A DNA stretch of 64,000 bases from the NCBI GenBank assembly GCA_029215795.1, contig JARDYH010000005.1:161039814-161103813 (forward strand), read 5' to 3'. Positions 8,460 to 42,370 of the stretch are shown piece after piece (the first letter of the stretch is position 1; each line of letters opens with the position of its first letter). Made by a program: the position numbers and the translations under genes. A model generated the notes under the pieces. The model saw nothing but the letters and a program-made list of their open reading frames with translations, had not been told where the DNA came from and searched no databases. Source of the stretch: Anniella stebbinsi (Eukaryota > Chordata > Lepidosauria > Squamata > Anniellidae).

Positions 8460-9398
8460 TCAGAGGTTGACAAATGAAGTCGTCTCTTTCTTTTGCAGTG
8501 CCTTGGCGGCCACTTCCCACCACCCTCGCTCCGACAACTTGTACTCAGTCATTCCATGTCTATATGTTACTGTGATTAGGTTCTCCCCTTTCCCAGAGAT
8601 CAGCATGATTTTCTCATTGCAGGTGAAAAGCTGCATCTTGGCATTATTCTGAACACAATGGGGTTCCTGCCAGAATCTACTAATGGCTTCATCCAGGCAA
8701 TTTGTCAGCTGCCTCCATTTTGTGACAGTCAACTTGTTCCTCACCTTCCACAAGTTCTCCATGTTTAGTGGCTCTGCTCCAGTTTGGAGACGCTCCTTGA
8801 CTACATCCCAGTCGTTCACCTGGAGATCATATTCAGGTACACCTAGTTTGAAGAAGACAGAAATCTTGTACTTTCCCTGGCCTGAGACAAACTTCATCAC
8901 TTTTCCATCACACTCCACCAACATCTCAGCATCTTGTTGGATGACTTCAGGTTCCATGGGAAACCGTTCAGCTGCTCGGTCAAAACAGGCCAAAGAAGAA
9001 AACCCTGGTCTAGAGGGACCCCAGCTATGAAGATGACTACGAATGCCAAGGATAGTACTAAGGCTGAGGGGCTGTGAGCTAGAGCAAAGACGAGAAAGGT
9101 AGAGCCCCCATCTAGGCACAAAGACATCGTATTGGACTTTGCCTTGATCGTGGAAGACTGTGATGGCACATTCTCCATCACCAGAGGTAAACTCCATCAG
9201 GGTGTGCCCATCAGAAATGGTAAGATGGGCATTGCTTCTCACGCATGGGGGCTCCCTCTGGAGCTTCTCTAAAGCACAACTGAGACAGAAGGACAATTTG
9301 CTGTTGGGCTCTTCTTTATTCTTGACTAACAGCAAGTTCCTGAAAATGAGCTCCTTTGAGAGAGAGGGTGCCATTCCACCAGATGACGCCTTCTTCAT
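8460..9398 (-). CDS. Tandem-repeat protein, locus 1 (three SG-x-GE units); unrecognised, candidate interferon-induced gene
   Basis: A 312-residue frame on a single exon. The start is the first ATG after a strong acceptor (TTTTTAATTGTCCTGCAG, AG at 9411-9410); the frame stays open upstream but that part is intronic. The ATG has A at -3. The protein holds three related units at about residues 34-104, 134-204 and 228-301. Each has a Cys/Ala-rich helix ending in EP (residues 49-50, 149-150, 245-246), a strand pair, an SG-x-G turn (SGDGE at 72-76, SGQGK at 172-176, SGKGE at 268-272), a strand such as ITVTYRHG, and a Y-x-L or W end. Helical linkers separate the units. There is no signal peptide or membrane segment, so a cytosolic or nuclear protein is likely. 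Relatives lie at 19.65, 39.45 and 41.7 kb. A consensus ISRE sits 1.4 kb upstream. I cannot name the family; the immune role is inferred. Confidence 0.7.
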   Translation of the reverse strand: MKKASSGGMAPSLSKELIFRNLLLVKNKEEPNSKLSFCLSCALEKLQREPPCVRSNAHLTISDGHTLMEFTSGDGECAITVFHDQGKVQYDVFVPRWGLYLSRLCSSSQPLSLSTILGIRSHLHSWGPSRPGFSSLACFDRAAERFPMEPEVIQQDAEMLVECDGKVMKFVSGQGKYKISVFFKLGVPEYDLQVNDWDVVKERLQTGAEPLNMENLWKVRNKLTVTKWRQLTNCLDEAISRFWQEPHCVQNNAKMQLFTCNEKIMLISGKGENLITVTYRHGMTEYKLSERGWWEVAAKALQKKETTSFVNL

Positions 9399-9409
9399 TC
9401 TGTTCTCTA

Positions 9410-10134
9410 CTGCAGGACAATTAAAAAACAAACAGATTTGAGCTTTTCTAGCAATGAAAAGACATCTTATTTCCCATTCCACCTGCACAAAAAGGCTTTC
9501 CAACAAAGACGATGGCAAGAGCAAAGCCCTGAGCGTACTCCATTCCAGGCCACTGGAGAATGGACAAAGGTCTCCTGCAACATATAGACCCTTATAATAG
9601 GCAAATTGGTATCTCATTGCAGGTGTCAGAAATAATCACTCAAGGAAAGCCTTTGAGGGCATCCTTTGGCATTTTCTTTTGATAGGAATAGGAGTCACAT
9701 TAAGTAAAAACATTTTGTACAAAGGATAGGGGATTTGACTGGTAGACATGGAATGGCGAGCTTCCCACTATGACTACTATAATTTTCTCTCACTCTCTCT
9801 CTGACCAGCCTTGCCACATTTCAGACCTCTTACCTCTACACCAAATGTCACTGCCAAATAATTCATTTGCCAGTATTAAGCCAAGTGATCCCCATTTTCA
9901 TTTCTCTACACTGACAAAAATATCCCGCACAGATTCATCCAGATCTTCAAAGCAGCTTCCAGAGCCTCACCCCATCCTAACTTCCCATGCCTTTTGCTTC
10001 TCCAACTCACAGCTAGCCTAAGCTCTTACACGCTTCTAAGATACTCTGCTCCATTGTCCTTCGTATCCCTTATATCTAGAACTCACACCCCAACACCCAT
10101 ATAGTCCCTTCTCTTCCTTCAAAATTGAAAATTC
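9410..10134. other. Presumed intron of locus 1
   Basis: Sequence between the acceptor of the locus-1 coding exon and its putative promoter. No repeat recognised. Intron status is inferred from the acceptor at 9410-9411; the donor of the upstream exon was not located. Confidence 0.4.
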
Positions 10135-10330
10135 GAGTGAAGAATTTGGCCTGTTGAAAGGACTAAAGAGATAAGGGCTATTGAAAAACCACAGTGAGCA
10201 GGCACATGTCTCAAACTTCTTGGTTCCCTCTTTGCCCCCTCTCTCCCCTCCCCTTGCAATCAGGGTTGATAAAAATCAATGAGCCCCCCCCCCCCCACCA
10301 CAGGTGGTGTACAGAAGTGTATGCGCTCTC
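10135..10330. repeat. Duplicated block, partner at 21820-22250
   Basis: The segment from 'cctgttgaaaggactaaagagataagggc' through 'caatcagggttgataaaaatc' and on to 'ggtggtgtacagaagtgtatgc' is matched at 21.8-22.25 kb. Both copies carry the same hAT-type end (CAGGGTTGAT at 10261 and 21977) at the same site, so that insertion is older than the duplication. Here the transposon is truncated after about 20 bp. Confidence 0.75.
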
Positions 10331-10344
10331 TCTCTCTCTCTCTC

Positions 10345-10485
10345 TCTCCTCCTCTCCATGGTATCCTCACAATAACAACCCTGTGAGGCAGGTCAGGCTG
10401 AGAATCTGTGACTGGCTCAAAGTCACTCAGTGAGCTTCCATGGTCGAGTGGGGACTAGACCACTAATCACTACACCACCCTGGAT
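10345..10485 (-). mobile_element. tRNA-derived SINE fragment
   Basis: Reverse complement reads a tRNA-like head: box A-like TAGTG-GTTA region and a box B-like 'agtccccactcgaccatgg', followed by 'ggttgttattgtgaggatacc'. Another copy is at 30060-30286. Both belong to a larger duplicated block. Confidence 0.65.
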
Positions 10486-10824
10486 CGCCGTCTGCCCATC
10501 ACCTCTTGCCTCTCTCTCGAACCGCTTCTCTCTCATCTCCCTTTAAAATAGCCCTCCCCATCTGATGTCCTCCAGATTTGTCGGGCTACGCTTCCCATCA
10601 TCCCCAGCTTAGCATGGCCCTTCTTTTTTTTTCTCATAGCCGTGGCCAAAGCAGCTGGCACAGTATAAGAAATTCTTTTCATTGTACCTTACTCTCTGCT
10701 CTGCGGAAGAAGCTGCTTCGGGTCCCAATCCACGATGTCTGTCTGGGGAAAAAGCTTCTACGAAGTCCCCTTTTCCCACCTCTTTATCTCCGCCTCTCCC
10801 TCTTCCCTCGGTATGATCTGAGCT

Positions 10825-10836
10825 AGTTTCGATTTC
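10825..10836 (-). promoter_or_regulatory. ISRE of locus 1
   Basis: On the reverse strand the sequence is GAAATCGAAACT, a full match to the interferon-stimulated response element consensus GAAAnnGAAACT bound by ISGF3 and IRF proteins. It lies about 1.4 kb upstream of the acceptor of the locus-1 coding exon, the expected place for a promoter with a short 5' exon and first intron between. The same 12 bases recur at 31195-31206. A single 12-bp match can occur by chance, but its conservation in the duplicate and the analogous ISREs at locus 4 support it. Confidence 0.6.
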
Positions 10837-10971
10837 CCCGCAAGGCCGATCGTTTCTGGGATGCTTCAAAATCTGGGAATGGATTTTCGTCTGGCTGACA
10901 GGAGTGGGAGGGCCGAGCCAGAGAAAAAGACGCACTTAGCAAGGTATCATGTATCTCGGAGGCCATTGCAG

Positions 10972-11183
10972 TGGAAGCTGGTGGCTCCGATTTTGGTGGG
11001 ACCATGAATCCATTCTGAGTTTCAGTCAGAACCAGCCAGAATTCTAAAATAGCAATCAAAGGTGTTGATCCCTATCTCCAAAATATGTTCAATGCCTTTG
11101 ATAGCTCCTATAGAGTTCTGGCTGGTTTTGACTGAAACCTAGAATGGATTCACAGCCCACTGAAATCGGAGCCACCAGCTTCC
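10972..11183. repeat. Imperfect palindrome inside the promoter block
   Basis: Arms of about 75 bp: 'ggaagctggtggctccgatt' at the left and 'aatcggagccaccagcttcc' at the right, with 'gaatccattctga' and 'agaatggattca' also mirrored. The loop (about 11040-11110) is itself partly inverted. In the 30-35 kb copy this palindrome is split into halves at 30.92-31.05 and 34.53-34.61 kb by foldback-element DNA. Confidence 0.75.
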
Positions 11184-11439
11184 ATTCCAGAGCTGGAATT
11201 CTACGATTGTGTTACCTGAAATTCTGCATCATTTCTTAACCCTAGTCTAAAACTTTTATAAAGCACCAAATATTTTTTAAGCATTGTAGTGCAAATAATG
11301 AAAGAGAAGACAGTCTCTGCCGGCAGGTTCACAATCTAATAGACACGGTACACAAGGAAAAGAGAACGTGGAGGGGAGAGGAGAGGTTGGTCATCTCCCC
11401 TGATGAAATGTGCGGCGCATGCCTATGGAAAAGTTGGAG

Positions 11440-12348
11440 TAGGGTGACCAGATAAAATCCAGGTCAAGGCTCATGTAACTTTAACAGTTGTAGAGAAAAG
11501 GGGATTTCAGCCAGTGTCATTTGTATGCAATGAGTTCCTGGTGAAATTCCCTCTTCATCACAACAGTTAAAGTTGCAGGGGCCCTGCCTTCTTTTGTATA
11601 TGGTCGCTCTAGTACAGTTGGAGACAAAAGGAGAGCAAAGCTCTGGTGCTATGTAAAAATATATTTTTCTTTATTTCTTATGTCTTATCTTCTGTATGCT
11701 CGACGCGTTTCGGTTGTGAAACCTTCATCAGGATCTACACAAAAACTAAAATACAAACATAAAATCATTAAAGATTGTCTTCAGCTAGCATGAAAACAAC
11801 ACCCCTACACCAACTGAAGCATATCTTAGTATACATTCTTTTGCTATCCAAGAGAAACACCAGAAATATTCAACATTTGCACATTCATGTAAGAGATTTT
11901 TTTTAGAAAAAACTGACCTGGAGCACTTCTTTACAAATTGTTGTTATTATTCTAACAGAAAACAGTTTAAAGTTTCTGCTCATATACCGTCCCGATAAGC
12001 TCATTCGTCTCGAGATTCTTAGCTGAGGGTCAGTTGGGAAGCAATTTTAAATCATTCAGTTCTACAGCTGGCAGTCTTAATTGCCTTGTGACTCAGTGAT
12101 CCTGTCAACACTCTGTTAGCAGTTTGGGAAGGTTTTTATCAACCTGCTACTTTTTTCTGCTTAAGCCTTACTTAAGCATTCACCATAAGCATTCACTCTA
12201 GTATAGTGCCTGCAACTTTAACTGTTGTGATGAAGAGGGAATTTCACCAGGAACTAATTGCATACAAATGACACTGGCTGAAATTCCCTTTTCTCTACAA
12301 CTGTTAAAGTTACATGAGCCTTGACCTGGATTTTATCTGGTCACCCTA
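11440..12348. mobile_element. TAGGGTGACCAGATA-family MITE, interrupted by another insertion
   Basis: Left half 11440-11617 and right half 12194-12348 together form one element of this family. The gap is a Penelope-like insertion. Flanking bases (AGTTGGAG and ACTTACCC) do not form a target duplication, so recombination between two copies is also possible. Confidence 0.75.
11618..12193 (-). mobile_element. Penelope-like element fragment with hammerhead-ribozyme-like core
   Basis: Inserted into a MITE, with the MITE bases around CTCTAGTA present on both sides (near 11608 and 12197) as a target duplication. On the reverse strand 11731-11707 reads CTGATGA, a GGTT...AACC stem, then GAAAC and GCGTC. 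This is the conserved hammerhead core arrangement reported for Penelope-like retroelements. There is one unpaired A next to stem II, so this copy may be inactive. No reverse transcriptase coding is left. Confidence 0.5.
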
Positions 12349-12419
12349 ACTTACCCACTCTGGGAACTGTAATCTTCAGAGGCGCCAGTGAAAGGCAGTT
12401 TAATATGTTTCTTCTTCAG

Positions 12420-12473
12420 GAGGTGCTAGAGGCACCCAGCAGTGATGATGTACAGCACGAGAAAACAGTATTT
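12420..12473 (+). CDS. Candidate 54-nt internal exon, unidentified gene
   Basis: Acceptor TGTTTCTTCTTCAG (ending 12419), 54 nt open only in phase 0 (E-V-L-E-A-P-S-S-D-D-V-Q-H-E-K-T-V-F), then a consensus donor GTAAGT at 12474. Both splice signals are strong for so short a segment. It could be spliced to the segment starting 12894. Not similar to the SG-x-GE family. The gene is not recognised, and a decoy exon is possible. Confidence 0.3.
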
Positions 12474-12893
12474 GTAAGTGCCAGGGAGATGGGACATTTA
12501 GCCATCAGCTTTCACTTTCTAGAATTTCCATGGCTTTCTTGCTAGCTCTCTCTTTCATCTCCTGTGATCTGCTCTTGTGATTTCATTGACCCATCACTGC
12601 ATGTCTGAAGATGGTTCTGTGGCTGATCTGACAGGAATGGCAGTCTTAACACATGTGGAGGACACTAGGCTGGGGAAGGCTGTTCTTCTTTAGAAAACCA
12701 ATGATAGCCATGTCCAAAGGAGCAACAGGAAAGAGGGGTGTGTGTGTGTATGTGTGTGTCTGTAGAGGAAACAGCCCATGCAGCTATTAGTTGAATGTGC
12801 TTCCCAGAATTGGTATGATTTCTCAGAAAAGAAATTAAATGGCTTATTATCCCTCTCTTTCACTTTCGGGTCTCTGCTTTTGTTGCAATTTAG

Positions 12894-13045
12894 CTAATCG
12901 CCAGGCACAACAGCTCAACAGATTGGGCCAGGAGGACCCTGCAGAAAAGGTCACCCTGGACCATGTATTCATATCCTCTGCTGTGCTCAGAAATTCTGTG
13001 GCAGACAATGTGATGTGGAAAACAAATGGCCTGCAAACTTTCTAA
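12894..13045 (+). CDS. Candidate 3' exon, unidentified gene
   Basis: Acceptor TCTGCTTTTGTTGCAATTTAG ends at 12893. In phase 1 the segment encodes A-N-R-Q-A-Q-Q-L-N-R-L-G-Q-E-D-P-A-E-K and runs to TAA at 13043-13045. In phase 0, as needed to join the exon at 12420-12473, it is also open, to TGA at 13011-13013. The phase-1 reading looks more protein-like, which argues against a direct join. No match to anything I know. Confidence 0.28.
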
Positions 13046-13139
13046 GACTTTTGCTACAAGATGAATGGAGAATGTTCCATGCCATCACTTCGTCTAGAAG
13101 GAGATGGTTCAGGGTGGGGAAAGAGGTATACGTTTGGCA

Positions 13140-13360
13140 TAGGGTGACCAGATAAAATCCAGGTCAGGGCTCATGGAACTTTAACAGTTGTAGAGAAAAG
13201 GGAATTTCAGCCAGTGTCATTTGTATGCAATTAGTTCCTGGTGATATTCCCTCTTCATCACAACAGTTAAAGGTGCATGCACTATACTAGAGTGACCAGA
13301 TACAAAAGAAGGCAGGGCCCCTGCAACTTTAACAGTTGTGATGAAGAGTTTGGCACCCTA
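13140..13360. mobile_element. Internally deleted TAGGGTGACCAGATA-family MITE
   Basis: Perfect 8-bp target duplication GTTTGGCA (13132-13139 and 13361-13368). The right half is mostly lost; only the terminal CACCCTA remains, giving about 221 bp instead of about 315. Confidence 0.85.
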
Positions 13361-13475
13361 GTTTGGCAACATTCTTCCTGTAGCAAATGGCCGAGTGAAT
13401 CATTTAGGAACAGCAACAAGTCACGTGGTGCCTTTGTGGGCTAACATTCTAAAAATGCAAGAAGCCCATCTATTT

Positions 13476-13795
13476 TAGGCTGACCAGATAAAATCCAGGT
13501 CAGGGCTCATGTAACTTTAACAGTTGTAGAGAAAAGGGAATTTCAGCCAGTGTCATTTGTATGCAATTAGTTCCTGGTGAAATTCTCTCTGCATCACAAC
13601 AGTTAAAGTTGCAGGGGCCCTGCCTTCTTTTGTATATGGTCACTCTAGTATAGTGCCTGCACCTTTAACTGTTGTGATGAAGAGGGGATTTCACCAGGAT
13701 CTAATTGCATACAAATGACACTGGCTGAAATTCCTTTTTCTCTACAACTGTTAAAGTTACATGAGCCCTGACCTGGATTTTATCTGGTCAGCCTA
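13476..13795. mobile_element. TAGGGTGACCAGATA-family palindromic MITE
   Basis: 320 bp foldback, ends TAGGCTGACC / GGTCAGCCTA, with perfect 8-bp target duplication ATCTATTT (13468-13475 and 13796-13803). Only about 115 bp from the preceding copy. Confidence 0.9.
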
Positions 13796-13900
13796 ATCTA
13801 TTTTGTTTATTCAAGTTGCTCAACTGTATACACTCTGGCCTACTCCTGAGCTTGCACAGGCATTTGAGGTTGCACTAAGCAGGTAGATTCACATACCCAC

Positions 13901-13904
<4 letters not shown>

Positions 13905-13940
<36 letters not shown>

Positions 13941-14115
13941 TATTTATTTATTTATTTATAACCCACCTTTCCCTCCAGATCGAGGTGGGGAACAACAACA
14001 AATATAAAACACAAGAACCACAAAATATATTAAATATTAAAACAAATAAAAACTAATACATCATTAAAAACATCTTAAAATTCAACTGGTAGGCCTGCCG
14101 AAAGAGATGAGTCCA
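13905..14115 (-). mobile_element. 3' end of an L2/CR1-group LINE with (ATT)n tail
   Basis: Same 3' end as at 3958-4155 and 22716-24787, with an (ATA)n run at 13905-13940 marking the tail of the reverse-strand element. Confidence 0.75.
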
Positions 14116-14957
14116 CTCAGCAATTTACAAAGCAATCCTATTAGAATTTACTTGGAAGGAAGTCCCAATGTGGCCTTCTTAGACAGCTGCCAGGACCCTG
14201 AGACCCTGAGCTCCATCAGACAAGCGTTTTATTGCACTCATGGATTTTCGCGGGTCCCTCTCACGGCATTGTCTGCCTTCCTCGCGCCACAAAAACACAC
14301 CCAGAAAGTCCAATATATTTTCTCCACATGACATAAAAGCACCCTTCTGTCCTGTGTATTGCCATCATGTGTAACGTTGATGAAGGAGGAAGGCAGGGCG
14401 GTTCTCCAGCTTGCTGAGTCTGTCGGTTGAATGAACGGACTTGTGCTGAGCTGGTCAAACGGACTTTTGCTACTCCAATCTCACCCTCATTGCCTGCAGA
14501 AACAGTGCCCGGCCAATTAAATGCTTAATTGGTAAAACCCTAGACAACAGAACCAGAGCGAGGTGGGGAAGGCAACCTGGTCCATCACCTGACAAGAACC
14601 AATGAACTGGAGGGGAAAAGAGAGGAGGCAGGGCGGGGCGGGTGCAATAACAGGAGAGCAAACAGCAGCAGCAATCGTGAAAGGGACCAGCACTTGCTGC
14701 ACTAATGAAATGGAGGTCAAAATCATAGGTGCATACCAGGAAAAAAAAGTAGGTGTGATGGAGCCCCATGGCAGGGCCCACTGCTGAAGCCTTCCCTGCC
14801 CTGTTTAAAAAATATTGTCCAGCACTGTGAACACTGCCAAGTAGCTGGATCTAGCCACTATTTTAATTTCCCATAATGCCCCGCTACCTAGTATCACTCT
14901 GAAGGACTGTGGGAAATTTAATGGCTGAAGCCTTCCCTGCCCATTCCCACTGGCTGT

Positions 14958-14990
<33 letters not shown>

Positions 14991-15459
14991 TCCCACATTT
15001 TGAGCATTGCTAGGAAGCTGGATCTAGCCACACTTTTAACCTCCCCATGCCTCCCTACCTAGTGTTACTCTGAAGGATTGTGGGAAATTTGATGGAGGGC
15101 TACGCTCAGGAACCCAACACTGTTTGGGACACTGCCTTCACAGACAAGTAAGTCCTTCAGACCCCGGCGACAAGGGAGGGGAGGCTATCAGGGGACACTT
15201 TTTTCCAGGATCCATCAGACCTGGAACCAGCCCTGGTCAATGAAGCATATTCCCTCGGTTGGGTATACAGGATTGTTGAAGCCTGGGCTGACAACTTACT
15301 GAAGTCAGCAAGCCAATCCAATGGTGTCAGCAAAGCAATAGTAAGCTCATGAGAACAACTGATGAATCCTAATCAATGAGTTCGCAAGAGAACAGCAAAA
15401 AGTCCTGTGGCTGCAATTATATTTTAGTCTCCAGCAGTATCTTGTTTCACTTCTTCCTT
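14116..15459. other. Unassigned sequence
   Basis: No convincing gene. Two related blocks, 'gaagccttccctgccc' and 'aggaagctggatctagcca', occur around 14790-14940 and 14930-15080 as a local tandem duplication split by (ATA)n at 14961-14990. A short piece at 14720-14765 ('caggaaaaaaaagtaggtgtgatg') resembles 47935-47960. Confidence 0.4.
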
Positions 15460-15600
15460 TATTTCTTTGTTACATTTATACCCCACCTTTACATACAAAG
15501 GCCCGAGGCTGCTAACAACAATAAAATCCACAATAGAAAATGATCAATATACATAACCAAATTATCCATAACATTGAAAAACCAAATAAAAATTAGATAA
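15460..15600 (-). mobile_element. LINE or SINE 3' tail, reverse orientation
   Basis: The reverse complement gives 'aaaggtggggtataaatgta' followed by an AT-rich tail, the typical 3' end of reptile L2/CR1-group elements. Confidence 0.5.
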
Positions 15601-16271: not shown

Positions 16272-16299
16272 TATATCTATGTAACTTTAGTTTCATCCC

Positions 16300-17538: not shown

Positions 17539-17546
17539 GTTTATAA

Positions 17547-17863: not shown

Positions 17864-17871
17864 GTTTATAA

Positions 17872-19651: not shown

Positions 19652-20296
19652 TTAAGCACATCTAGCTAGAACTGTACACTGATCATGTTTCTTCTTTGCT
19701 GTATAACACATGGCTGTATTTTTATCATCATCATATAGCACTGTGATCTCATTCTCGCCTCCACCAGAAACAAAGGACAAAATGAATTCATCACAAATTA
19801 TTTGCAGAATGCAGTTATTTTTCATGCTGTATGTAGGCTCCTTAACTAATTCATGTTTGGCCAGGTAAAAACAAGCATCCAATTTTTTGTTCTCGACTCC
19901 CAAAAACTTCAACTCATTCTGCACTCGCTGGAGGTTCTGCAGGCTGAGAAGCTCTTCAAATCCTCCTTTATTCCACCTGAGATAGATATCTAATGTTGCC
20001 ATAACCCGGTGTTGCTGAAAGTATCCATGCTTATCAAAAATGCTGACTTTGCATCTCTCCTTCCCATAAACAAGCTGGAGTCTTTCTCCACTGAAGAAGT
20101 GTACATCCTCATCCCACTCCCCATCCTGTAGGGAGTTGGGCTCTTGAAGGAGATGTTTCAAGATTCTGTAGAAGCGGAGTTTTTGATCTTGAAGCAGGCT
20201 ACAGTGTTTTGTCCATGTTGCCTTCAATCTTGGATCATTGTGGGCTTCCCCGCTTGACTTGGCAGCAATCTGTGGTTCTGGAAGGTTTTCTGCCAT
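19652..20296 (-). CDS. Tandem-repeat protein, locus 2 (two units); unrecognised, same family as locus 1
   Basis: 214 residues from the ATG at 20296 (G at -3, G at +4). The frame is open 14 codons further upstream but without an ATG, so an upstream coding exon is possible. After a polar N-terminus comes a helix and a divergent unit (residues about 50-106; EP at 52-53, with FSGER in place of SG-x-GE). A helical linker follows (about 113-150, with the string NLQRVQNELKFLGVENK), then a clearer unit (about 153-200) with K-E-P, N-N-C, SGGGENEITVLY. The protein stops soon after, as in the paralogues. No signal peptide or membrane segment. I found no ISRE near this copy and no strong acceptor directly upstream, so its expression is less certain than for loci 1 and 4. 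The linker and second unit are closest to the broken copy at 39.45 kb. Confidence 0.6.
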   Translation of the reverse strand: MAENLPEPQIAAKSSGEAHNDPRLKATWTKHCSLLQDQKLRFYRILKHLLQEPNSLQDGEWDEDVHFFSGERLQLVYGKERCKVSIFDKHGYFQQHRVMATLDIYLRWNKGGFEELLSLQNLQRVQNELKFLGVENKKLDACFYLAKHELVKEPTYSMKNNCILQIICDEFILSFVSGGGENEITVLYDDDKNTAMCYTAKKKHDQCTVLARCA

Positions 20297-20850: not shown

Positions 20851-20858
20851 TCTAGGAT

Positions 20859-22879: not shown

Positions 22880-24187
22880 CTAAAATTCCACTGGATATGC
22901 CTGCCGGAAGAGAACAGTCTTTATGGCTTTCTTAAATTCTAAAAGACTGTTAAGTTGACGAGTCTCCTCCGGCAGGTCATTCCACAGTCTGGGAGCGGCA
23001 GAAGAGAAGGTCCTCTGGGTAACGGTTGTCAGCCTAGTCTTGGCCGACCGCAGTAAGTTCTTCCCAGAGGACCTGAGCGTGCGGGGCGGATTGTACAGGA
23101 GAAGGCGATCCCGCAGGTAACCTGAACCCAAACCATGTAGGGCTTTAAAGGTAATAACCAACACTTTATACTTCGCCCGGAAACTAATTGGCAGCCAGTG
23201 GAGCGATTTTAAAGCTGGCGTAATATGGTCACCCCTAGATGTACCGGTGACCAACCTGGCTGCCATATTTTGAACTAGTTGAAGTTTCCGGACTAGGCAT
23301 AGAGGTAGCGCTATGTACAGCGCATTGCAGAAGTCGAGCTTCGAAGTTACCAGCGCGTGCACCACCACCTTTAGGTCTTCCAACTCTAGGAAGGGGCGCT
23401 GCTGGCGTATCAGCCGAAGCTGATAGTAGGCACTCCTGGCCATCGCATCTATCTGGGCTGTCATTTGGAGCGACGGATCCAGGAGCACCCCCAAGCTGCG
23501 AACACAGTCTTTCAGGGGGAGTGTAACCCCATCCAGAACCGGTTGACACACCTCCAAACCCAGATTGCGGCCTTTGACAGCAAGCACCTCCGTCTTGTCT
23601 GGATTCAGCTTCAGTTTGTTTTTCCTCATCCAACCCATTACCGCCTCCCAGCATTCATTCAGAGGAGACACACTATCCTTAGCTGTCGCTGTTATCGAAG
23701 GCATAGAGAAATATATTTGGGTGTCATCAGCATACTGATAGCACCCCGCCCCATGCCTCCGGATGATCTCTCCCAACGGTTTCATATAAATGTTAAACAG
23801 CATTGGGGAAAGGATGGCACCTTGCGGTACGCCACACAGCAGCTCCTTCTTTGCAGAGCAGCTATCCCCAACCATCACCATCTGGAACCTGCCCGAGAGG
23901 TAGGACCGGAACCACTGAAGCACAGTGCCCCCGATTCCCAATCCCCTCAGGCGTTCCAGAAGGATACCATGGTCGATGGTATCGAAAGCCGCTGAGAGGT
24001 CCAGAAGTACCAACAGGGACACACTCCCCCTGTCACTACTAAGGCGTAGATCATCCACTAAGGCGACCATAGCAGTCTCAACTTCGTATCCCGCCCTGAA
24101 GCCAGTTTGAAATGGGTCTAGAAAATAAGTGTCATCCAAGACTACTTGGAGTTGAAAGGCAACCACCCTCTTGATCACCTTGCCCAA
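22880..24187 (-). CDS. LINE ORF2 reverse transcriptase, C-terminal two thirds
   Basis: 435 residues, uninterrupted. It begins in the reverse transcriptase palm: the block TGFRAGYEVETAMVALVDDL (about residues 28-47), LLDLSAAFDTIDH (62-74), a GVPQGAILSPMLFN block (119-132) and the catalytic YADD motif (about residues 151-154, in QYADDTQIYF), followed by the GW..KNKLKLNPDKTEVL thumb region. After this come HITPALKSLHWLPI, LVITFKALHGL and F-SSAAPRLWNDLP, typical of the L2/CR1 group C-terminus. The long intact frame shows a fairly recent insertion, but the element is truncated and joined to its upstream part only through a frameshift, so it cannot move on its own. Confidence 0.85.
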   Translation of the reverse strand: MGKVIKRVVAFQLQVVLDDTYFLDPFQTGFRAGYEVETAMVALVDDLRLSSDRGSVSLLVLLDLSAAFDTIDHGILLERLRGLGIGGTVLQWFRSYLSGRFQMVMVGDSCSAKKELLCGVPQGAILSPMLFNIYMKPLGEIIRRHGAGCYQYADDTQIYFSMPSITATAKDSVSPLNECWEAVMGWMRKNKLKLNPDKTEVLAVKGRNLGLEVCQPVLDGVTLPLKDCVRSLGVLLDPSLQMTAQIDAMARSAYYQLRLIRQQRPFLELEDLKVVVHALVTSKLDFCNALYIALPLCLVRKLQLVQNMAARLVTGTSRGDHITPALKSLHWLPISFRAKYKVLVITFKALHGLGSGYLRDRLLLYNPPRTLRSSGKNLLRSAKTRLTTVTQRTFSSAAPRLWNDLPEETRQLNSLLEFKKAIKTVLFRQAYPVEF

Positions 24188-24218
24188 GAATGGAAGGTTT
24201 GATACCGGTCTGTAGTTA

Positions 24219-24776
24219 TTAAAGTCCAGGGGATCCAGGGAGGGCTTCTTTTAAACATGATGGGAAAGTCCCCTCCCTGAGAGATGCATTAATAATATAT
24301 TGTAATTGCGATCTAACCGCATCTCCTCCCTGGACGACCAGCCATGAAGGACAGGGATCGAGAGGGCAAGTCGTCGTCCTCACTCGTCCAAGCAGCTTGT
24401 CCACGTCCTCGGTACTCACCAACTGAAACTGATCCAGTGTAATTCTACTCGCGGAGTCGCTGGACACCCCATCGTCAGCCTCTGCTATAACGACGACATC
24501 TAAGTCGGCTCTTATCTGAGAGATTTTATCTGTGAAATGATCGTTAAAGGCATCATAGCGAACCGCCGGAGGCTCTAAAATCGGATTCAGGGGGGAAGGT
24601 GCCCAAGTTAGACCCCTCACCACCCTGAACAGTTCCGCTGGACGCGAATTCGCAGACGCAATGCGTGCAGAAAAGAAAGCTTTCTTCGCTGCACGTATTG
24701 CCACCCCATAGGAACGAAGATGTTCTCTATGCCGTGTCTTGTCGGATAGAAGTCGAGTTTTCTGCCATCGGCGCAA
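24219..24776 (-). pseudogene. LINE ORF2 part upstream of the reverse transcriptase core
   Basis: 185-residue frame continuing the LINE 5' of 22880-24187, offset by a frameshift and stop around 24190-24230. It includes the spacer between endonuclease and reverse transcriptase and an N-terminal RT stretch (SQLQYIINASLREGTFPSCL). The endonuclease domain is absent, so truncation lies within ORF2. Confidence 0.7.
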
Positions 24777-24889: not shown

Positions 24890-25638
24890 CTCTCTGGTTG
24901 TTACCTGTGCCTTGCCTCACTCTAAGTGTAAGGATAGAAAATGTCAATGAGCAGAGAATTTGGGGAGATGGAGTAGATCTGAACAAGGAGGAGGAGTCTA
25001 GATATATATGCAAGAGATAGCGGAGGGGGATAGAAAATGAAACTAAAAGTAAACAGAATATATTCATGCAGTCCTGTTTAGGAAACTTCTGCTGCCAAAA
25101 AAGAGGCCCCATTTAGGAATATTTTGTTTCTGTTTCTGCTGAGTTTGAAATTGACATTTTATTTTTTAAAGAACTTTGCGTAGATCTAAAAACTGAAATA
25201 GTTAACCATTCAAAAATCCCTGTGTGTATTTTGTTAATGTCATTGTTTGTTGAAGACTAACCAGAAGAATATTTTTTCTTATGAATTTTAACAAAATAAA
25301 AACCATAGAAGTAGATAAAAAGGAATTTATTTTTTTAAAAAAGCTTGTTTGGTGGTGTTGATTCTGGAACATCAGGAAAAAAGTCATAATTAATTAAATA
25401 GTTGGAAGGGGGCTCATCTTCTGAATGACTTCACAAGTTCATTTTGCTTTAGTACTAAAATTACCTAATTATCATCCTATTTTTTTGATGGAAATTAATC
25501 TGAAAACAATTCAGGATAATTGCTTAGTGTGTACCTAACTTCTAATGAAACCTACACCTCTGAATATATATTAAGGTTCTATTAAACAATAGTGTACTTC
25601 TACTAAAAATGATGATTAAATAGAATCTTCCCCACTAG
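24890..25638. other. AT-rich sequence, part of the CAGGG hAT element
   Basis: Lies between the MITE end and the hAT terminus. Subterminal GATTTAAA-type words appear near 25640. No coding signal. Confidence 0.4.
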
Positions 25639-30536: not shown

Positions 30537-30546
30537 ATGTGGAAGT

Positions 30547-30916
30547 GGGACGTACTAAAACAAAGGACAGTACTTGCCCATAGAGAAACCATACCTGCCC
30601 ATAGAGAAACCATACTTGCCCATAGGGATCCATTGCATAGCACTTCCCCATAGGGATTCATTGCATAGCACTTGCCCATAGGGATTCATTGCATTGCACT
30701 TTCCCATAGAGAAACCATACTTGCCCATAGGGATTCATTGCATAGCACTTGCCCATAGGGATTCATTGGACAGTACTTGCCCATAGAGAAACCATACTTG
30801 CCCATAGGGATTCATTGCATAGCACTTGCCCATAGGGATTCATTGGACAGTACTTGCCCATAGGGATTCATTGGACAGTACTTGCCCATAGGGATTCATT
30901 GCATAGCACTTTCCCT
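30547..30916. repeat. Foldback-element arm made of short tandem repeats
   Basis: Starts GGGACGTACTAAAAC, the same terminus as 31306, after TGTGGAAGT (30538-30546). The rest is a tandem array of ~28-bp and ~21-bp subunits, each with CCCATAG (for example 'cccatagggattcattgcat'). The far end joins the promoter palindrome directly at 'ctataggagctatcc' without a terminus, so this is a partial element left by recombination. Confidence 0.75.
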
Positions 30917-31305
30917 ATAGGAGCTATCCAAGGCGTTGAACGTGTTTTGGAGATAGGGATCAACACCTTGGATTGCTCCTTTAGAATTCTGGCTGATTCT
31001 GACTGAAACTCAGAATGGATTCATGGTCCCACCAAAATCGGAGCCACCAGCTTCCACTGTAATGGCCTCCGAGATACATGATACCTTGCTAAGTGCGTCT
31101 TTTTCTCTTCTGGCTCGGCCCTCACACTCCTGTCAGCCAGACGAAAATCCATTCCCAGATTTTGAAGCATCCCAGAAACGAGCGACCTTGAGGGGAAATC
31201 GAAACTAGCTCAGATTATACCGAGGGAAGCCGGAGAGGCGGAGATAAAGCGGTGGGAAAAGGGGACCGCGTAGAAGCTTTTTCCTAGACAGATTTGACTT
31301 CCACA
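30917..31305 (+). repeat. Inverted duplicate of promoter part B (10.74-11.10 kb)
   Basis: Matches the reverse complement of 10.74-11.10 kb, from half of the palindrome ('ccaccaaaatcggagccacc') through the ISRE to 'gtagaagctttttcc'. It is bounded on both sides by foldback-element DNA. Confidence 0.85.
31195..31206 (+). promoter_or_regulatory. ISRE in the inverted promoter duplicate
   Basis: GAAATCGAAACT, identical to the locus-1 ISRE including flanks (GGG before, AGCTC after). The segment is inverted relative to its own part A, so any start site it drove would now face foldback-element DNA to the right. It is probably a disconnected promoter; the broken locus 3 at 39.45 kb lies on the + strand, 8 kb downstream. 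Confidence 0.55.
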
Positions 31306-34618: not shown

Positions 34619-35403
34619 TAGGGTGACCAGATAAAATCCAGGTCAGGGCTCATGGGACTTTAACAGTTGTAGAGAAAAGGGAATTGGGACCACAATACCT
34701 GATGGAACGCCTTTCCCGACATGAACCTACCCGAACACTACGTTCAACATCTAAGGCCCTCCTCCGAGTGCCTCCTCCGAGGGAAGCTTGGAGGTCGGCA
34801 ACAAGAGAGAGGGCCTTCTCTGTGGTGGCTCCCCAATTGTGGAACGATCTCCCCGACGAGGCCCGCCTGGCGCCAACATTGTTATCTTTTCGGCGCCAGG
34901 TCAAGACTTTCCTCTTCTCTCAGGCATTTGGCAATATCTGAGGAGCCTGGGTTTGTTTTGTTTTGTTTTTTGTAGTTTTTTGAAGTGTTGAAGTGGTTTT
35001 TAAATGTACAGATTGTGTGTATGTTGTATGTTTTTGCTGTTTTAATTTTTGTATATTGTTTTTAATTGTTTTTAATCCTATGTAAACCGCCCAGAGAGCT
35101 TCGGCTATGGGGCGGTATACAAATGTAATAAATAAATAAATAAATAAATTTCAGCCAGTGTCATTTGTATGCAATTAGTTGCTGGTGAAATTCCCTCTTC
35201 ATCACAACAATTAAAGTTGCAGGGGCCCTGCCTTCTTTTGTATATGGTCACTCTAGTGTAGTGCCTGCAACTGTAACTGTTGTGATGAAGGGGGAATTTC
35301 ACCAGCAACTAATTGCATACAAATGACACTGGCTGAAATTCCCTTTTCTCTACAACTGTTAAAGTTACATGAGCCCTGACCTGGATTTTATCTGGTCACC
35401 CTA
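34619..35403. mobile_element. TAGGGTGACCAGATA-family MITE, split by a LINE
   Basis: Flanked by GCGATTGG (34611-34618) and ATGATTGG (35404-35411). The paralogous block at 11203-11210 has the empty site ACGATTGT, which proves the insertion and an 8-bp duplication. Confidence 0.9.
34686..35146 (+). mobile_element. 5'-truncated L2/CR1-group LINE inside the MITE
   Basis: The short frame 34684-34941 encodes the LINE C-terminus (RTLRSTSKALL, RAFSVVAPQLWNDLP, FRRQVKTFLFSQAF), followed by a 3' untranslated tail with 'cccagagagcttcggctatg' and (AATA)n. AATT is present on both sides as a short target duplication. Confidence 0.85.
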
Positions 35404-35640
35404 ATGATTGGGCCACCTGAAATTCTGTATTACATCCTAACCCTGGTCTTAAACATTTATAAAGCACCAAATATTTTCTAAGCATTGTAGTGCAAATAAT
35501 GAAAGAGAAGACAGTCTCTGCCGGCAGGCTCACAATCTAATAGACATGGTACACAAGGAAAAAGGAATGGGGAGGGAAAAGGAGAGGAGAGCAAGCATTG
35601 GAACAGCCATGGATGGGGCCAGGTTGGTCATCTCCCCTGC
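35404..35640 (-). repeat. Duplicate of promoter part C (11.2-11.4 kb)
   Basis: 'aagcaccaaatatttt', 'gacagtctctgccggcagg' and 'cacaatctaatagaca' match 11.27-11.35 kb. The shared sequence is itself an old dispersed repeat tail. Confidence 0.75.
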
Positions 35641-35900
35641 CGTGATGTTCAGCCTTGGAGGCGAGGTCTACTGGGGGCCACCCACCTCCAAGCCAATCCC
35701 AAGGCAACCATCTTCCATGGCCATAAAAATGCATGGTTACCAGCTGGCCAGAATGTGATTAACAGATACTAGATGCCAGGAAAGAAATAACAACCTCAGG
35801 GGTTGGATCCAGAATCTGCTTTCTGTGAGAGCGATATTCTATTGCACATGATCTTTATGCTCAATTTTGGGGGCTTCACCCTCTCCCCCCTCCAAGGTCA
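35641..35900. other. No gene or repeat recognised
   Basis: Only short chance frames. Confidence 0.35.
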
Positions 35901-37080
35901 TCTCAGTCAGTCAGTCATGTTTATTGCTTTTGGCCAATGGCCTTTGCATAAAACAAACAACAACAAACAGTACAATCACCAAAAATAATAATAAATAATA
36001 ATAACATTAAAATACATACACAAAGGTTATTCATAATGTACATAGACATAATGCACGTAGTACATAATATACAAAATTTTAAAATATAGACTGGTATGTC
36101 ATAGGTGATCTGTCAGTGATTTAATATAAATCGGACATGGACAAATGCAATAATCTCCTTTACAATTAGTGGTGTTAGAAAGGACCATTCAGGTTGACCA
36201 TTCAGTCTGCAAAAGGACAACACAATCTGGAAGTTGAAAGTAGGTTTCTTTATTGCAAAGACATTCTTGCAAGAAAGGGTGAGCTTAGGCACACACCCTG
36301 CATTGAAATCACAAGTCCATTATTCCCTGTGTGGAACCTATAGGAGACGCCTAATTAAACTACTAAATTCCCCGCCCCTGTTTACATATCCTCTTACCCA
36401 CATTTCTGCGCCCCCACTCATGTTTGTTAAAGCAAGCTGTTTCCTTTGTTTCTGCAAGCAGTCATGGTCACTGTCATGGTCTAATTGCCAAAGCTATTTT
36501 TCTACTGGTTCCATGCTATCACGAGCCTAGTTTTGACCACATCTACTAGCGAGGTTTCTCTACAAGAATAGCTCCAGAACAGTTTCGGTTGTGCTGTCCT
36601 TCATGGTCCAAAGGTCACACACCTGTCAAGTTTTAGACTGTTCCATTGCCACTCTGTTCCTATCTTAGCAATGCTTTTTGCTGTTTGATTAATATGTGCC
36701 TTAGCATTTTATATGTGCCTCTTGGATTAATTAACTATTGCTCCTTGGATTAATAAATGCTTAGCCCTGCTTGTTGCTTTTGAAAAAGCAACATTATTAT
36801 CTTTCCTACAGTGGCTATCTCTGTTATGTATTTATTTCTAATCTTTCTGGCAGCTGTGACAAACAGAGCTACATGCCAAGTCACATATTTATCCACGTCC
36901 ACTAGGAAGTAAAATATCACTTCCAGTGGGCTCTGGCAAAAGTAGTTTCCAATTAAGGGTGCCACAAATTGTTCCCTTGGGTCATTGTATAGGGGACAGT
37001 AAAGAATATACTGCAGTGGCAGTATTGCAGCCAATGAGCTTTTTCCGAGGCGCGATTATTGCTAATTTGAAACTTTTCCC
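35900..37080 (-). mobile_element. LINE 3' region, split by a solo LTR
   Basis: 35900-36172 is an AT-rich 3' region ('ttattgcttttggccaatgg'). 37034-36811 encodes a LINE ORF C-terminus on the reverse strand (LYCPLYNDPREQFVAPL, FYFLVDVDKYVTWHVALFVTAARKIRNKY), a pattern common after the reverse transcriptase of reptile non-LTR elements. The clade is uncertain. Confidence 0.6.
36173..36810 (+). mobile_element. Solo LTR, 638 bp
   Basis: Starts TGTTAGAAAG and ends CTTTCCTACA, so the termini are inverted repeats (TGTTAGAAAG versus TGTAGGAAAG). 4-bp target duplication GTGG (36169-36172 and 36811-36814). An AATAAA at about 36752 near the right end suggests + orientation. Probably an endogenous retrovirus or related LTR element; the internal part was lost by LTR recombination. 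Confidence 0.7.
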
Positions 37081-38699
37081 AAGGTCATCTCATTCAGCAG
37101 GGTCTCCTGACTGTGTGTAGCATTTTCAGGGGTCTCAAGAGGCTTCTGTGGGAAGGAGGGGCTCTGAAGGTCCACTTCCACCAATTCAATCCAGATTAAA
37201 TCTGGATCCAGAGAGCTTTGGCTATTGGGTGGTATAAAAAACAATAATATAAAATAAAAATCCAAGCCCATGTGTTTAGTGCTGTAATTATTATTTCTCT
37301 ACTTTATATATGATGTCTTGCAAAAAGGATAGCCCCTTTTCTGGAGGATGGTACTTTGCACATGCTCATAGGTATTCTGCCCCCCCCTTTTTTAAAGCTG
37401 CTTCTTATCAAAGGCGAATGTCATTTTGTGTGTGGACCTGCTCAAAAACACTGGCTGAATTTGAACAACACAATAGTCAATGGTGGGGTAATAATCAACT
37501 TTACAGTTGTTCATCTAGGGGGTACTCCCCACACAACATGGTAATAAATAATCAACTGTGGTGTGGATTAGGATCAGCACTGAGTTGACTATGGCAGCAT
37601 GCGGACGACACGATAGTCAACACAACTGACGATTGTTCCCCCCCCCTCCCAGTTGCTTATTGTGTCGTCCGAATTCAGCCACTATGTCCTTAGTTCCATT
37701 TTGTCTAAACAGAAGCTAGTTTCCTTAGAAACCAACTCTGCATAATCCTCCCACCCGTGTGGTTAGATATCAGCACCAGTTTATGGAGGTTCTAAAGACA
37801 GGAGATGATTTACATTCCTGGAAAATTCATAAGGAGGCAATGACCCATTTGGAAGATATTGTAAACCCTATTCAGGAAGGCATAAAGTTTTAAAAGGAGG
37901 GTTTGACCCATTTTGAAGAAATTAAAAATCCTATTTAGGAAGGAGTGTCCATTCTCCCATGGGTGACAGAGTTGAATACTACTACTCAATCACTGATGAA
38001 ATGTTGAAACGGATTGCACAATTCCGGAGTCACCGTTTGTTATCTGTCTATTGCTTGCTGTTATTGTAGAGCCAATTGAGCAAACATATATATTTGTACA
38101 TGAGATTTTATTAATTCTTGTATGTTAAAATATTCATTACTGTGGATGTACAATTTCATTGAGTAGGTTTTTGCTCATTGTTAAGCTCAGATGAGCCAAT
38201 AATACATTGCTTGATATTTGTATGAAATATTTCTGCCATGAGTAGTGTAGTAATTGCCATTACCCTCTTGTCCTGTTTTGGTTGTTTTATGCTTGTGAGG
38301 GCTCCTCTCTTTGTTTGTTGATGTGGGTGAAGGGCATAGACATGCCTGTGTATGCATTTGGGTTATATTTCTGAATGGAATGTTAAATCCAAAAATCATA
38401 GTTTTTTTTTTAAATGACAAGCAAAAGATCCCTTTTCTAGAGCAGGGCACTCTGCACATGCTCAGTGGCACTGCCATTAGAAGTGTTTTCTAAAGCTTCC
38501 TCCCATCACAAGGGAATTTAAAATTGCTTGGACTGGGAGACTTTTGCCCCCCTCTAACCTTTTTTCTCAGTCCAAATGAATGGAGAAATTGCTCCATTCA
38601 TTTTCATGGGGATGAGGATAGAAAGAGAAAAAAAGAGCTAGAGAGAGAGAGAGAGAGAGAGAGGAACCAGAGAGACAGATGAAATGAAGGAAGTAAAGG
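37081..38699. other. Unassigned sequence
   Basis: A LINE tail scrap lies at about 37205-37260 ('agagagctttggctattggg'), and a (GA)n run at 38638-38664. Two blocks around 37800-37930 ('cattttgaagaaatt...aggaagg') form a weak local duplication. No convincing gene. Confidence 0.4.
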
Positions 38700-39245
38700 G
38701 CAACTAACATGATCAAGGGGCTGGAACATTTCCCATATGAGGGAAGGTTACAACAACAGCTGGGATTATTTAGCTTGGAAAAAAGGAAGCTGAGACATGA
38801 TAGATGTGTACAAAATTATGCATGCTGTGGAGAATATGGATAGGGAGACATTTTTCTCCCTCTCCCATAATACTAGAAAACAATGTGGTCATCCCGAGAA
38901 GCGGATTGATGGGAGATTCAGAACAGATAAAAGGAAGGACTTCTTCACACATAGCATATAAACTATGGAATTCACTACCACAAAATGTAGTGATGGCCAC
39001 CAATTTGGATGGCTTTAAAAGGGGATTGGATAAATTCCTGGAGAAGGCTATCAATGGCTACTAGTCCTGATAGCTAAATGCAACCTCCTGTATCAGAGAC
39101 AGTAAGCCTATCTACACCAGTTGCTGGGGAACATGGGCGTGAGTGTGCTGTTGCACTCATGTCCTGCTTGTGGGCTGTTTGGCCACTGTGTGAACAGAAT
39201 GTTGGATTAGTTGAACCCTTGGTCTGATCCAGCAGGGCTCTTCTT
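38700..39245 (+). mobile_element. CR1-type LINE 3' fragment, longest copy
   Basis: Carries a short C-terminal ORF (38804-39064) with AYKLWNSLPQNVVMATNLDG and FKRGLDKFLEKAI, followed by the 3' region 'ctagtcctgatagctaaatg' and 'ctgatccagcagggctcttc'. Other copies in the window are pieces of this. Confidence 0.75.
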
Positions 39246-39449
39246 ATTTTATTATGAATTTGCCACTTCAGCTGAAAGAGTTCCCTGCCTGTGTTACAGC
39301 TTCTAATATCTTGGAAGAGGACATTGCTGGTTGGCAAGCAGGGGTGCAGCTAGGGCTGGGCTCCTGAGCCAAAGTCCAAGACAACCACAGTGGCCACCAA
39401 ATGTCCTCCTAGAGAATGACAGGTGACAGAGGGTAAGTGGCAAACAGGA

Positions 39450-39735
39450 GCAGCCTGGAAGACCCCCAGAGGGTGCAGAATGAGCTGAGGCTTCTGGGAG
39501 TTCAGAACAAGGAAATAAAGGTTTGTTTTTCCCTGGCTAGGCATAAATTCATTGAGGATTCTGAATGCTTGCAGGAAAATGCCACTCTGAAAATAATCTG
39601 CAAGGAAATTATCTTGAGGTTTGCAGCTGGCAAAGGAGGGAATGTGATCAGTTATGCATGATGAGAAAAAGAATGCAGTCAAGTATTACAGAGGGGCAGT
39701 CTATATGTGGGATATATGTGGGAAAAGCCCCGCAA
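39450..39735 (+). pseudogene. Broken copy of the tandem-repeat protein, locus 3
   Basis: Encodes the helical linker and the first part of one unit, closest to locus 2: Q-R-V-Q-N-E-L-R-L-L-G, an LARHKF helix, L-Q-E-N-A, I-I-C-K-E-I-I-L-R-F and a GKGGN turn in place of SG-x-GE. A 1-base frameshift near 39650 then moves the reading to the next frame, where D-E-K-K-N-A-V-K-Y-Y continues the similarity for a short stretch. There is no start region or first unit upstream; the sequence before 39440 is unrelated. A truncated, frameshifted duplicate, opposite in strand to the intact copies. Confidence 0.65.
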
Positions 39736-41194
39736 TGGCTGCAGATCTGCATTGCATCAGTTATACGAGACAGCAGCAGCTTCACAGCCACTGTGGGGCT
39801 TTCCTGCAAAGCTGCGCATTGAAAATGTCTGGGACTTAACCCAACTTTTTAAATGAGAGCAAGGTCAGTACAGCTCTTCTGCTGTCTGTGTCACTCTGGA
39901 GACAATCTGGGGGCTGTCCCCGGTAGAAGGTGAGCGGTGATTCGTCACCTTCCACCAAGAAAAGGGTACGATGGCTCCGGTACCTGGATGGTCACCTGAA
40001 ACCCCACGCTCCCTCCTTGGCATCGGGATTACTCGATGGAAGAGGAAAACTGTGAGGTTTCTGATGGAGGCAGCACCAAGTTGGCACCGTGAAGACAGCT
40101 CCCATAGTAAACTGGGAAAAGTCTGGATCTACATTGGAAGGTTGATTTTTCTCCCAAGCCCGAAGGCAGACTTCCCTCCCCCATCCCTCTTGTGGCTCAC
40201 TCAAGAACTTACTGAACTTAAAATGTTGGATGGAGATTGTGCTTTCTTTTTTTATGTTGTTTTGAAATAAACCAAAGAACACAGTTGCTGCCATTTTAAG
40301 TGCCTTTTAATTCCAATTGCAACAAACCTAACTAGTCACAGGCAATCCTCCTCGCCCCGCCAACAGTTTTCCCCAACATGGTACCCTGGACAACAGGCCT
40401 CAACATTCTTGACTATTGGACACGCTGGTTGGGGCTTAAGTCAAAAGCATCCTGAGGCCACCAGGCTGGGAAACATCAATTGCAACATGACCAATATACT
40501 GACCCTCCCTCAACCCCCACAACAGTTTGACAACTCTTATGTATGTATATATGAGATAGAGGGCAAGTAGAATGAATTATGAGCAATGTACACATATATA
40601 TTTTAATGCAAATATACCACTTCTAAAAACAAAGCAAAGCACGACTTTATATATTTATTATTTTTAAAGCTTTGATCCTGCTTTTAAACATGAGCTTTCT
40701 TAAAAAGAAGAAAATCAAATCAAACGTGGCATCACAACAAGGAGCACAAAAATACCTTCACAATCAGTTCAGGCAACACAGTGGGACTTTTCAAACTTCC
40801 AGATTGTGTTGTTAACCTGTTAAATGCCTGGGTGGATACAAAAGTCCCCAGCAGACACCTAAAGATAGGCTCCAGGTAAGCAGCTCTTTGGAAGAGCATT
40901 CCATAGTCAGAGTTGGGGCTACTGCAAAAGTCTTTGGTCTGGTTGGCCATCCACCAAATCTCTGATGGCAGGGGCGCTCAGAGAAGATCCACTGATCCAG
41001 ATCTGAATTTGGAGGTGGCAAATTATGGCAGGTGTTTTTAGTAGTCTTGGGGGCCTGCAATGCCTGAAAACTTTTGGGACTGAAGGGAGCGCTTACCATG
41101 CTGTATTACTTTTCTTTTCTTTTCCTTTCACCTTGCACCAGTTTAAAAACACAGCTGGCAGCATTTAAACTAGTGGGAAAAGTAAATGTATCCA
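39736..41194. other. Unassigned sequence
   Basis: The first part may be 3' flank of broken locus 3; an AATAAA occurs at 40266. The plus frame 39971-40270 has no recognisable features. Confidence 0.35.
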
Positions 41195-41340
41195 TTTGTT
41201 CATTACATTTCTATACCGCCCAATAGCCAAGGCTCTCTGGGCAGTTCACAACAATTAAAATTGTAAAATGCAATATGATAAAACATAATATAAAACTTCA
41301 AAAAGTTTAAAATTACTACGTAAGAACAGAAGTAAAACCC
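41195..41340 (-). mobile_element. LINE 3' tail, reverse orientation
   Basis: Reverse complement reads 'gaactgcccagagagccttg' and 'gctattgggcggtatagaaa', as in 18420-18615. Confidence 0.7.
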
Positions 41341-41724
41341 AGCAGCAGGGAAGAGATTTAAAAATTCAGCAAGGGAACAATGCTATGGCCCCTAGACAGC
41401 ATCTGGGAGGCCATAGCATAGTTTGGATTCCCGGATCCGAACTCCTTGCCTCTTCCCCTCGCAGCTGGTGCATACAGCATTGCACCAACTGCCTCTCCGA
41501 GTTTGCAACAGGGGGCATCCTGGTAGGCAGGGACCAGAGGGGCTGTGATACAAGTTATCACAAGGCGTCTCCAGACTTCTTTGCTCCCCCTTTGAAGCAC
41601 CCCAGCTAGATGGGCAAAAAGGCCTGTCTAGCAAAAATGCAGAGGATGGGGAGGCAAAGATCAGAATTAATCTTGTATTCCTTGTGTCCACCCATTATGT
41701 TATGTATATATTGGAGAAGTTTGG

Positions 41725-42370
41725 TTACCAAACAGTGGGTGTGAGAGCTCTCACAAAGCGATCCACAAAAGTAGAAAGCTCAATGTCATACTGAATTTCT
41801 CTATTCCTGGTCCGGTAGACGTGGATGAAATTCCCTCCCTCACCAGAAATGAGCTCCAGCTTTCTTCCATCTGTCTCTATCACCATCCGGCAATTGTTCT
41901 GCACACGGATGGGCTCTTGAGCAAAATGGCTCCGGCCGTATTCCAAGCAAGCCTTGAGGCCTTTGGTCATTTCCCTCCAGGAGATGATCTCATGGGCTAT
42001 CTTCTCTAGGTTCTCCACACTCAACAACAACCACCCACAGGATGACATCTCTACTTTTTCACCAAATTTGGGGAGATGGACTTTATAACAAGGAATGCCC
42101 CCCACAAAGGACACTTCAATGCCACTCTCTCCCTTGCCTGAGACAAATTCCAGCTTCTTCTCCTCACAACACATCACCAGCCGGGCATTCTCCTGCAAGC
42201 AGCTCTCTTCACGGCTAAATTTCAGCAAGGCGTGATCTAGGCATTTTTCCAGTGCATTGGAAAGAGCACCCAGGGATTCCAGGCGATTGCGCACCTTTGC
42301 AATGTTCTCCACATTGAGTACCTCAGGCCGGGTTGATAAACACTTATCCATCTCGTCCAAGGATGACGTT
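41725..42370 (-). CDS. Tandem-repeat protein, locus 4 (two units); unrecognised, candidate interferon-induced gene
   Basis: Single exon bounded upstream by a strong acceptor (TTTTCTCGTTCTCTTTTCTATAG, AG at 42372-42371). From the first ATG (42351) the protein has 208 residues; coding could also enter from an upstream exon. It begins with the helical linker that precedes unit 3 of locus 1 (PEVLNVENIAKVRNRLESLG). Unit 1 (about residues 40-100) holds Q-E-N-A-R, SGKGESGIEV and Y-K-V. A second linker (about 105-135) follows, then unit 2 (about 137-203) with F-A-Q-E-P, Q-N-N-C, SGEGGNFIHV and Y-D-I-E-L. It stops 7 residues after the last unit (R-A-L-T-P-T-V-W), as in locus 1. Two ISREs sit 1.05 kb upstream. 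No signal peptide or membrane segment. Function unknown; the interferon link is inferred. Confidence 0.7.

Follow-up and report, generated by a model that had tools for sequence, protein, structure and literature searches.

A family of tandem-repeat proteins was delineated in a 64-kb stretch of the 1.89-Gb Anniella stebbinsi assembly (C5:161039814-161103813; hereafter the window). A profile of the repeat unit placed in one family three intact single-coding-exon genes with three, two and two units and one broken copy with a single unit, the composition that an earlier note on this DNA had described. The reading that we favour, with a confidence poised evenly between acceptance and doubt, is that these are reptile interferon-inducible, cell-autonomous defence proteins, often membrane-associated and carrying multivalent binding units. 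What can be read from the sequence is the family itself, its repeat structure, an excess of interferon-stimulated response elements (ISREs), the position of one further member (member C) inside a cluster of immunity-related GTPase (IRG or p47, interferon-inducible) genes, and hydrophobic segments. Family features of the window, numbered from its first base and assigned from open reading frames (ORFs), the unit profile and orthologs, were as follows.

8460-9398, minus strand: gene 1, 312-aa protein with three units (9123-9371, 8823-9089 and 8535-8789); ORF, unit profile and orthologs
8460-9409, minus strand: probable coding exon of gene 1
9410-9425, minus strand: probable 3' splice site of gene 1 (...tgcag), ending at 9410, read by eye
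19652-20296, minus strand: gene 2, 214 aa with two units (20009-20230, degenerate, and 19706-19960); ORF and unit profile
20417, minus strand: end of the probable 3' splice site of gene 2, read by eye
41725-42351, minus strand: gene 3, 208 aa with two units (42079-42339 and 41782-42036); ORF, unit profile and orthologs
41725-42370, minus strand: probable coding exon of gene 3, with the probable 3' splice site ending at 42371, read by eye
39443-39682, plus strand: broken copy with one unit and in-frame stops before and after it; unit profile

The unit was measured as an 87-residue core followed by a linker of about 11 residues, with a period of about 98, and not as the approximately 70 residues given earlier. 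Its hallmarks, present in genes 1-3, are a helix ending in EP, the motif C-V-Q-x-N-A, an S-G-x-G loop, Y-x-V and tandem arrangement. In a six-frame scan of 223.8 kb, units in genes 1-3 had E-values of 2.4e-7 to 1.2e-31, and the top profile score in the window was 104 bits. The reversed window gave zero unit matches by profile, ten 7-base block shuffles of the window scored no higher than 3.4, and 148 kb of flanks scored no higher than 2.6 (12 kb holding member A, described below, were left out by choice). Across 46 proteins the profile found 183 units, partial ones included; conservation was computed over 159 of these, 24 short ones being dropped, and the most constant residues were L (98%), E-P (96%/91%), S-G-x-G (96%/89%/94%), F (94%) and N (93%). 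Identity was 22-43% among the window units and 29-34% among the whole window paralogs, in line with the earlier estimate of about a third. The unit was predicted to consist of two helices and four strands (alpha-alpha-beta4), with mean predicted local distance difference test values of 87 and 90 for the two genes modelled.

The raw ORF of gene 1 (8460-9617, 385 aa) was judged too long; the coding start is most likely the ATG at 9398 and not that at 9617, giving 312 aa, because the 3' splice site ends at 9410 and the Rhineura ortholog P0006 begins alike. By eye, a pyrimidine run and an AG precede the coding exon of each of genes 1-3, which agrees with the single coding exon proposed earlier and would place untranslated first exons ahead of all three genes. 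Gene 2 may be decaying, because its first unit lacks the SG-x-GE loop and its end appears to be without the C-terminal helix that models predict in genes 1 and 3. Of the three genes, gene 2 was the one closest to the broken copy, sharing 69% of bases over 245.

Interferon-type control sites were counted in the window and its flanks. The full ISRE consensus (AGTTTCNNTTTC) was observed five times in the window against 0.18±0.44 expected, with 0 of 100 shuffles reaching five, and was absent from 159.8 kb of flanks, so that all five sites of the 223.8-kb stretch lie in the 64-kb window. A looser core (GRAANNGAAASY) occurred 10 times in the window against 1.78 expected. The sites were distributed as follows.

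10825-10836: full ISRE inside the repeated segment 10738-11113, with the gene 1 splice site about 1.4 kb downstream
25033-25044: full ISRE with the gene 2 splice site 4.6 kb downstream, its assignment to gene 2 uncertain
31195-31206: full ISRE, carried by the other copy (30915-31292) of the repeated segment that lies upstream of gene 1
43420-43450: twin ISREs, the one at 43439 with the full consensus and the one at 43420, 19 bases away, with the core only; the gene 3 coding exon lies about 1.05 kb downstream
48043-48134: second copy, in inverted orientation, of the gene 3 promoter segment 43401-43492 (80% over 92 bases), with twin ISREs (48104 full, 48085 core)

Segment 10738-11113 was repeated in inverted orientation at 30915-31292 with 93.7% identity and a full ISRE in both copies; here a repeat may have spread an interferon site. 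The inverted duplication of the gene 3 promoter involved window regions 43401-43698 and 48134-45991; the unit profile found no family coding exon beside the 48-kb duplicate, and a satellite-like array adjoins it at about 48.9-50.2 kb. Two full sites thus lie in copies of one repeat and two in a duplicated promoter, and the five therefore reduce to about three independent ones. With that reduction, the earlier claim of ISREs at these genes was upheld as an excess; the sites upstream of genes 1 and 3, and less certainly the one assigned to gene 2, could act as promoter sites.

A search of the wider genome added three members, member numbers in the genome being lower bounds.

C5:161028969-161030474: member A (L002), three units and a long polar tail
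C5:157635025-157636032: member B, hydrophobic anchor and two units
C7:73278895-73279878: member C, hydrophobic anchor and two units

Member A was 67% identical to gecko protein P0046 over 450 residues; its N-terminus reads MGACIPK, which we take to be a possible acylation signal. The 19-residue mean hydropathy reached 2.54 in member C and 3.06 in member B. Member C was flanked by two IRG ORFs (Pfam IIGP, E 4.1e-92 and 2e-116), with a third nearby (1.7e-77). The genome gave 13 IIGP matches, 12 of them on C7; seven lay in its main IRG cluster, a 99-kb stretch enclosing member C, two of the seven looking like halves of one gene. This cluster (C7:73187351-73285934, loci L026-L028) held five of its seven IIGP matches in open frames of 406-450 aa. 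Member C stood head-to-head with one IRG ORF, and a full ISRE lay between them at C7:73281182. The chance that at least one of three random loci would fall inside the IRG cluster was 1.6e-4, a post hoc figure.

Relatives were collected in three protein searches, which returned 13, 8 and 32 proteins; 11, 6 and 30 carried an organism name, all of them non-avian reptiles (lizards including one gecko, one snake, many turtles and one alligator), and the remaining two in each search were labelled 'lgn' without organism. No bird or mammal was present among the named matches, within the limits that the widest search took in 7994 candidates sharing most words and that match length was restricted in all three. 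The named relatives were uncharacterized or misnamed records. The former, such as LOC134396007 (Elgaria), LOC123021069 (Varanus) and LOC112548570 (Alligator), comprised orthologs of gene 1 or gene 3 and longer relatives; among the latter, the multi-unit Platysternon megacephalum proteins P0025 and P0028 were misnamed dTDP-4-dehydrorhamnose reductase and coproporphyrinogen III oxidase. Turtle members held up to 10-11 units (P0025, P0026). A literature search found no paper for 12 LOC names, and no title or abstract start describing the family was present among the matches listed.

Orthologs of gene 1 were 89% identical in Elgaria and 67-73% in Rhineura, Varanus, Hemicordylus and Podarcis (64-89% between lizards overall), and those of gene 3 were 88% identical in Elgaria, 72% in Hemicordylus and 66% in Varanus. 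Unit 1 of gene 3 was 67% identical to a Mauremys turtle unit (57-71% over five lizard sequences). A tree was built from 85 units of 25 of the 46 proteins, chosen by hand; its deep branches were weakly supported. Units 1, 2 and 3 of gene 1 and unit 2 of gene 3 each formed their own clade across lizards (support 0.98-1.0), the clade of gene 3 unit 1 enclosed the Mauremys unit (0.989), and it was joined by the final units from snake, alligator and turtle proteins (0.977). Because units group by position across lizards and gene 3 unit 1 stays this close to its turtle counterpart, the paralogs are most likely older than the parting of lizards and turtles, and the differences between loci would be old and not recent arms-race change. 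The rapid divergence proposed in the earlier note was accordingly not sustained by these identities and groupings. The immune reading gained from the ISRE excess and the place of member C in the IRG cluster.

Searches for a known domain gave no convincing match to a described family, in keeping with the earlier note, which could not match the unit to a known domain. No Pfam family exceeded its cut-off in the window's three ORFs, and 27 single units gave no Pfam match below E 0.003. DUF6374 (in P0025, P0026 and P0029) and bDLD1 (in P0026) passed the Pfam cut-off and were set aside as chance, because they consisted of 23-37 residue pieces summed over many repeats in long turtle members; the same judgement was passed on a PID_2 match in gene 1 (E 0.098) and, from the PDB sequence search, on a designed TIM barrel (34 residues, E 0.0054). 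Searches of NCBIfam, PADLOC and PDB sequences gave weak or short matches only. In structure comparisons REDD1/DDIT4 was the top, weak match for two models.

Under the favoured explanation, interferon would turn the family genes on, and each protein would present a string of alpha-alpha-beta4 units in 2 to about 10 copies. Such a string could bind a repeated or surface ligand multivalently, either the surface of a pathogen or pathogen vacuole or a partner defence protein, and the range of unit counts fits avidity for a repeated surface. Many members may be held at membranes, members B and C by the anchor helix and several others by a C-terminal segment that is amphipathic or hydrophobic. The C-terminal hydrophobic moment was 0.55 in gene 3 and 0.43 in gene 1, and the members tested from turtles, alligator and snake gave 0.51-0.70; each value is that of the best window near the end, taken without a control. 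Member C is probably co-induced with the adjoining divergent IRG GTPase and may act on the same membranes, and the outcome would be an antimicrobial effect in cooperation with IRGs. The immune link is strengthened because member C lies inside the IRG cluster.

Published passages on mouse genes (PMC1297648) describe IRG ORFs as typically one long 3' coding exon behind untranslated exons, and ISRE and gamma-activated sequence (GAS) motifs in most transcribed IRG genes of chromosomes 11 and 18; tissue-specific expression, in testis, is reported for mouse IRGC1 (PMC9232189). The present family would resemble IRGs in its proposed layout of a single coding exon (splice sites read by eye) behind putative untranslated exon(s), with ISREs nearby, and in its clustering; member C alone sits in an IRG cluster, divergently paired with an IRG ORF. 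It differs in that no IIGP match was found in any member scanned, genes 1-3 and members A-C included, the family consisting of unrelated tandem alpha/beta units. A further likeness is to the interferon-induced IFIT proteins, which consist of tandem TPR repeats and have an interferon-type gene layout and lineage-specific expansion; the present family has tandem repeats and lineage-specific expansion too and would share the gene layout, but its units are alpha-alpha-beta4 and not TPR. No TPR family exceeded its curated Pfam cut-off in the 27 units, the window's three ORFs or seven relatives; a sub-threshold TPR_TEX10 match was seen in the snake protein (E 0.002).

Several observations weigh against an interferon-inducible, membrane-associated defence family. 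The predicted fold gives no function, gene 2 looks eroded, and hydropathy revealed no strongly hydrophobic stretch in genes 1 and 3, their starts included. About three full ISREs count as independent; the core GRAANNGAAASY is less telling, its 10 occurrences in the window being accompanied by nine in the 159.8 kb of flanks; and GAS sites were not enriched in the window (15 against 23.9 expected). Members A and B had no full ISRE in the stretches examined, the IRG on the other side of member C had none within 6 kb, and the second full ISRE in 50 kb of C7 (73306811) adjoins no family gene. Linkage to IRGs holds for one of three family loci.

The proteins could instead be secreted or surface ligand-binding proteins with developmental or reproductive roles outside interferon biology, their ISREs arising by chance or carried by repeats. 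Two of the sites do sit in copies of a repeated element, the hydrophobic anchor of members B and C could present the units outside the cell, and lineage-restricted, moderately fast proteins are common in reproduction too. The twin ISREs at gene 3, the lack of any full ISRE in the 159.8 kb of flanks, the position of member C and the absence of a strongly hydrophobic start in genes 1 and 3 speak against such a role, which we consider unlikely while giving it real weight. That the copies are dead or dying duplicates without current function would accord with the broken copy, with the degenerate unit and lost tail of gene 2 and with the surrounding reverse transcriptase ORFs. It is improbable for the set: several families of lizards have orthologs of gene 1 and gene 3 that are intact over their full length and 60-89% identical, and a gene 3 unit is kept at 67% with turtle, whereas decay would not preserve frames so long. 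Gene 2 alone may fit it.

Descent from REDD1/DDIT4-like domains, which would make these tandem copies of stress-induced mTORC1 regulators, is distinctly improbable. The REDD1 core likewise has two helices on a four-stranded sheet and an EP-x-C-like motif after helix 2, but it differs in its psi-loop topology, is a single domain and shows no sequence relation: homology was rejected at that level, the profile scoring one human DDIT4 sequence at shuffle level, and what is left is a weak resemblance of predicted fold. Capture from a virus or bacterium would suit single coding exons and the presence of only reptiles among the named search matches, but it is a very remote prospect. Three single-protein queries of viral contigs and one of bacterial and archaeal genomes, scans that detect close relatives only, found no relative. 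PHROGs gave short matches, the best of them covering 32 residues of a turtle protein (E 2.2e-4), and neither gene 1 nor gene 3 had any.

The innate immunity of reptiles is poorly mapped, and the family supplies candidates by name, a profile of the unit and, in the IRGs, a partner that can be tested. In crocodile cells given RNA and DNA virus mimics, about 10% of the responding genes were reported to be uncharacterized (PMC5702629). If interferon-inducible defence proteins are indeed encoded here, the interferon response would gain a protein domain that had no mammal relative in the searches made, and turtle records misnamed as metabolic enzymes would be corrected. A broader proposal, tentative and in our view doubtful, is that the domain is new and belongs to a hitherto undescribed arm of cell-autonomous immunity. 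Its repeat proteins, multivalent and membrane-associated, would be induced together with IRG GTPases and located beside them, and would have been present in the lizard-turtle-crocodilian ancestor, no bird or mammal relative being found in the searches made.

Other features of the window were reverse transcriptase ORFs (RVT_1) at 22883-24250 on the minus strand and at 58812-59387 (just below the cut-off) and 61315-62361 on the plus strand. A U4 spliceosomal RNA match over the full model length, a gene or pseudogene, was recorded at 37005-37143 on the plus strand (63.4 bits).

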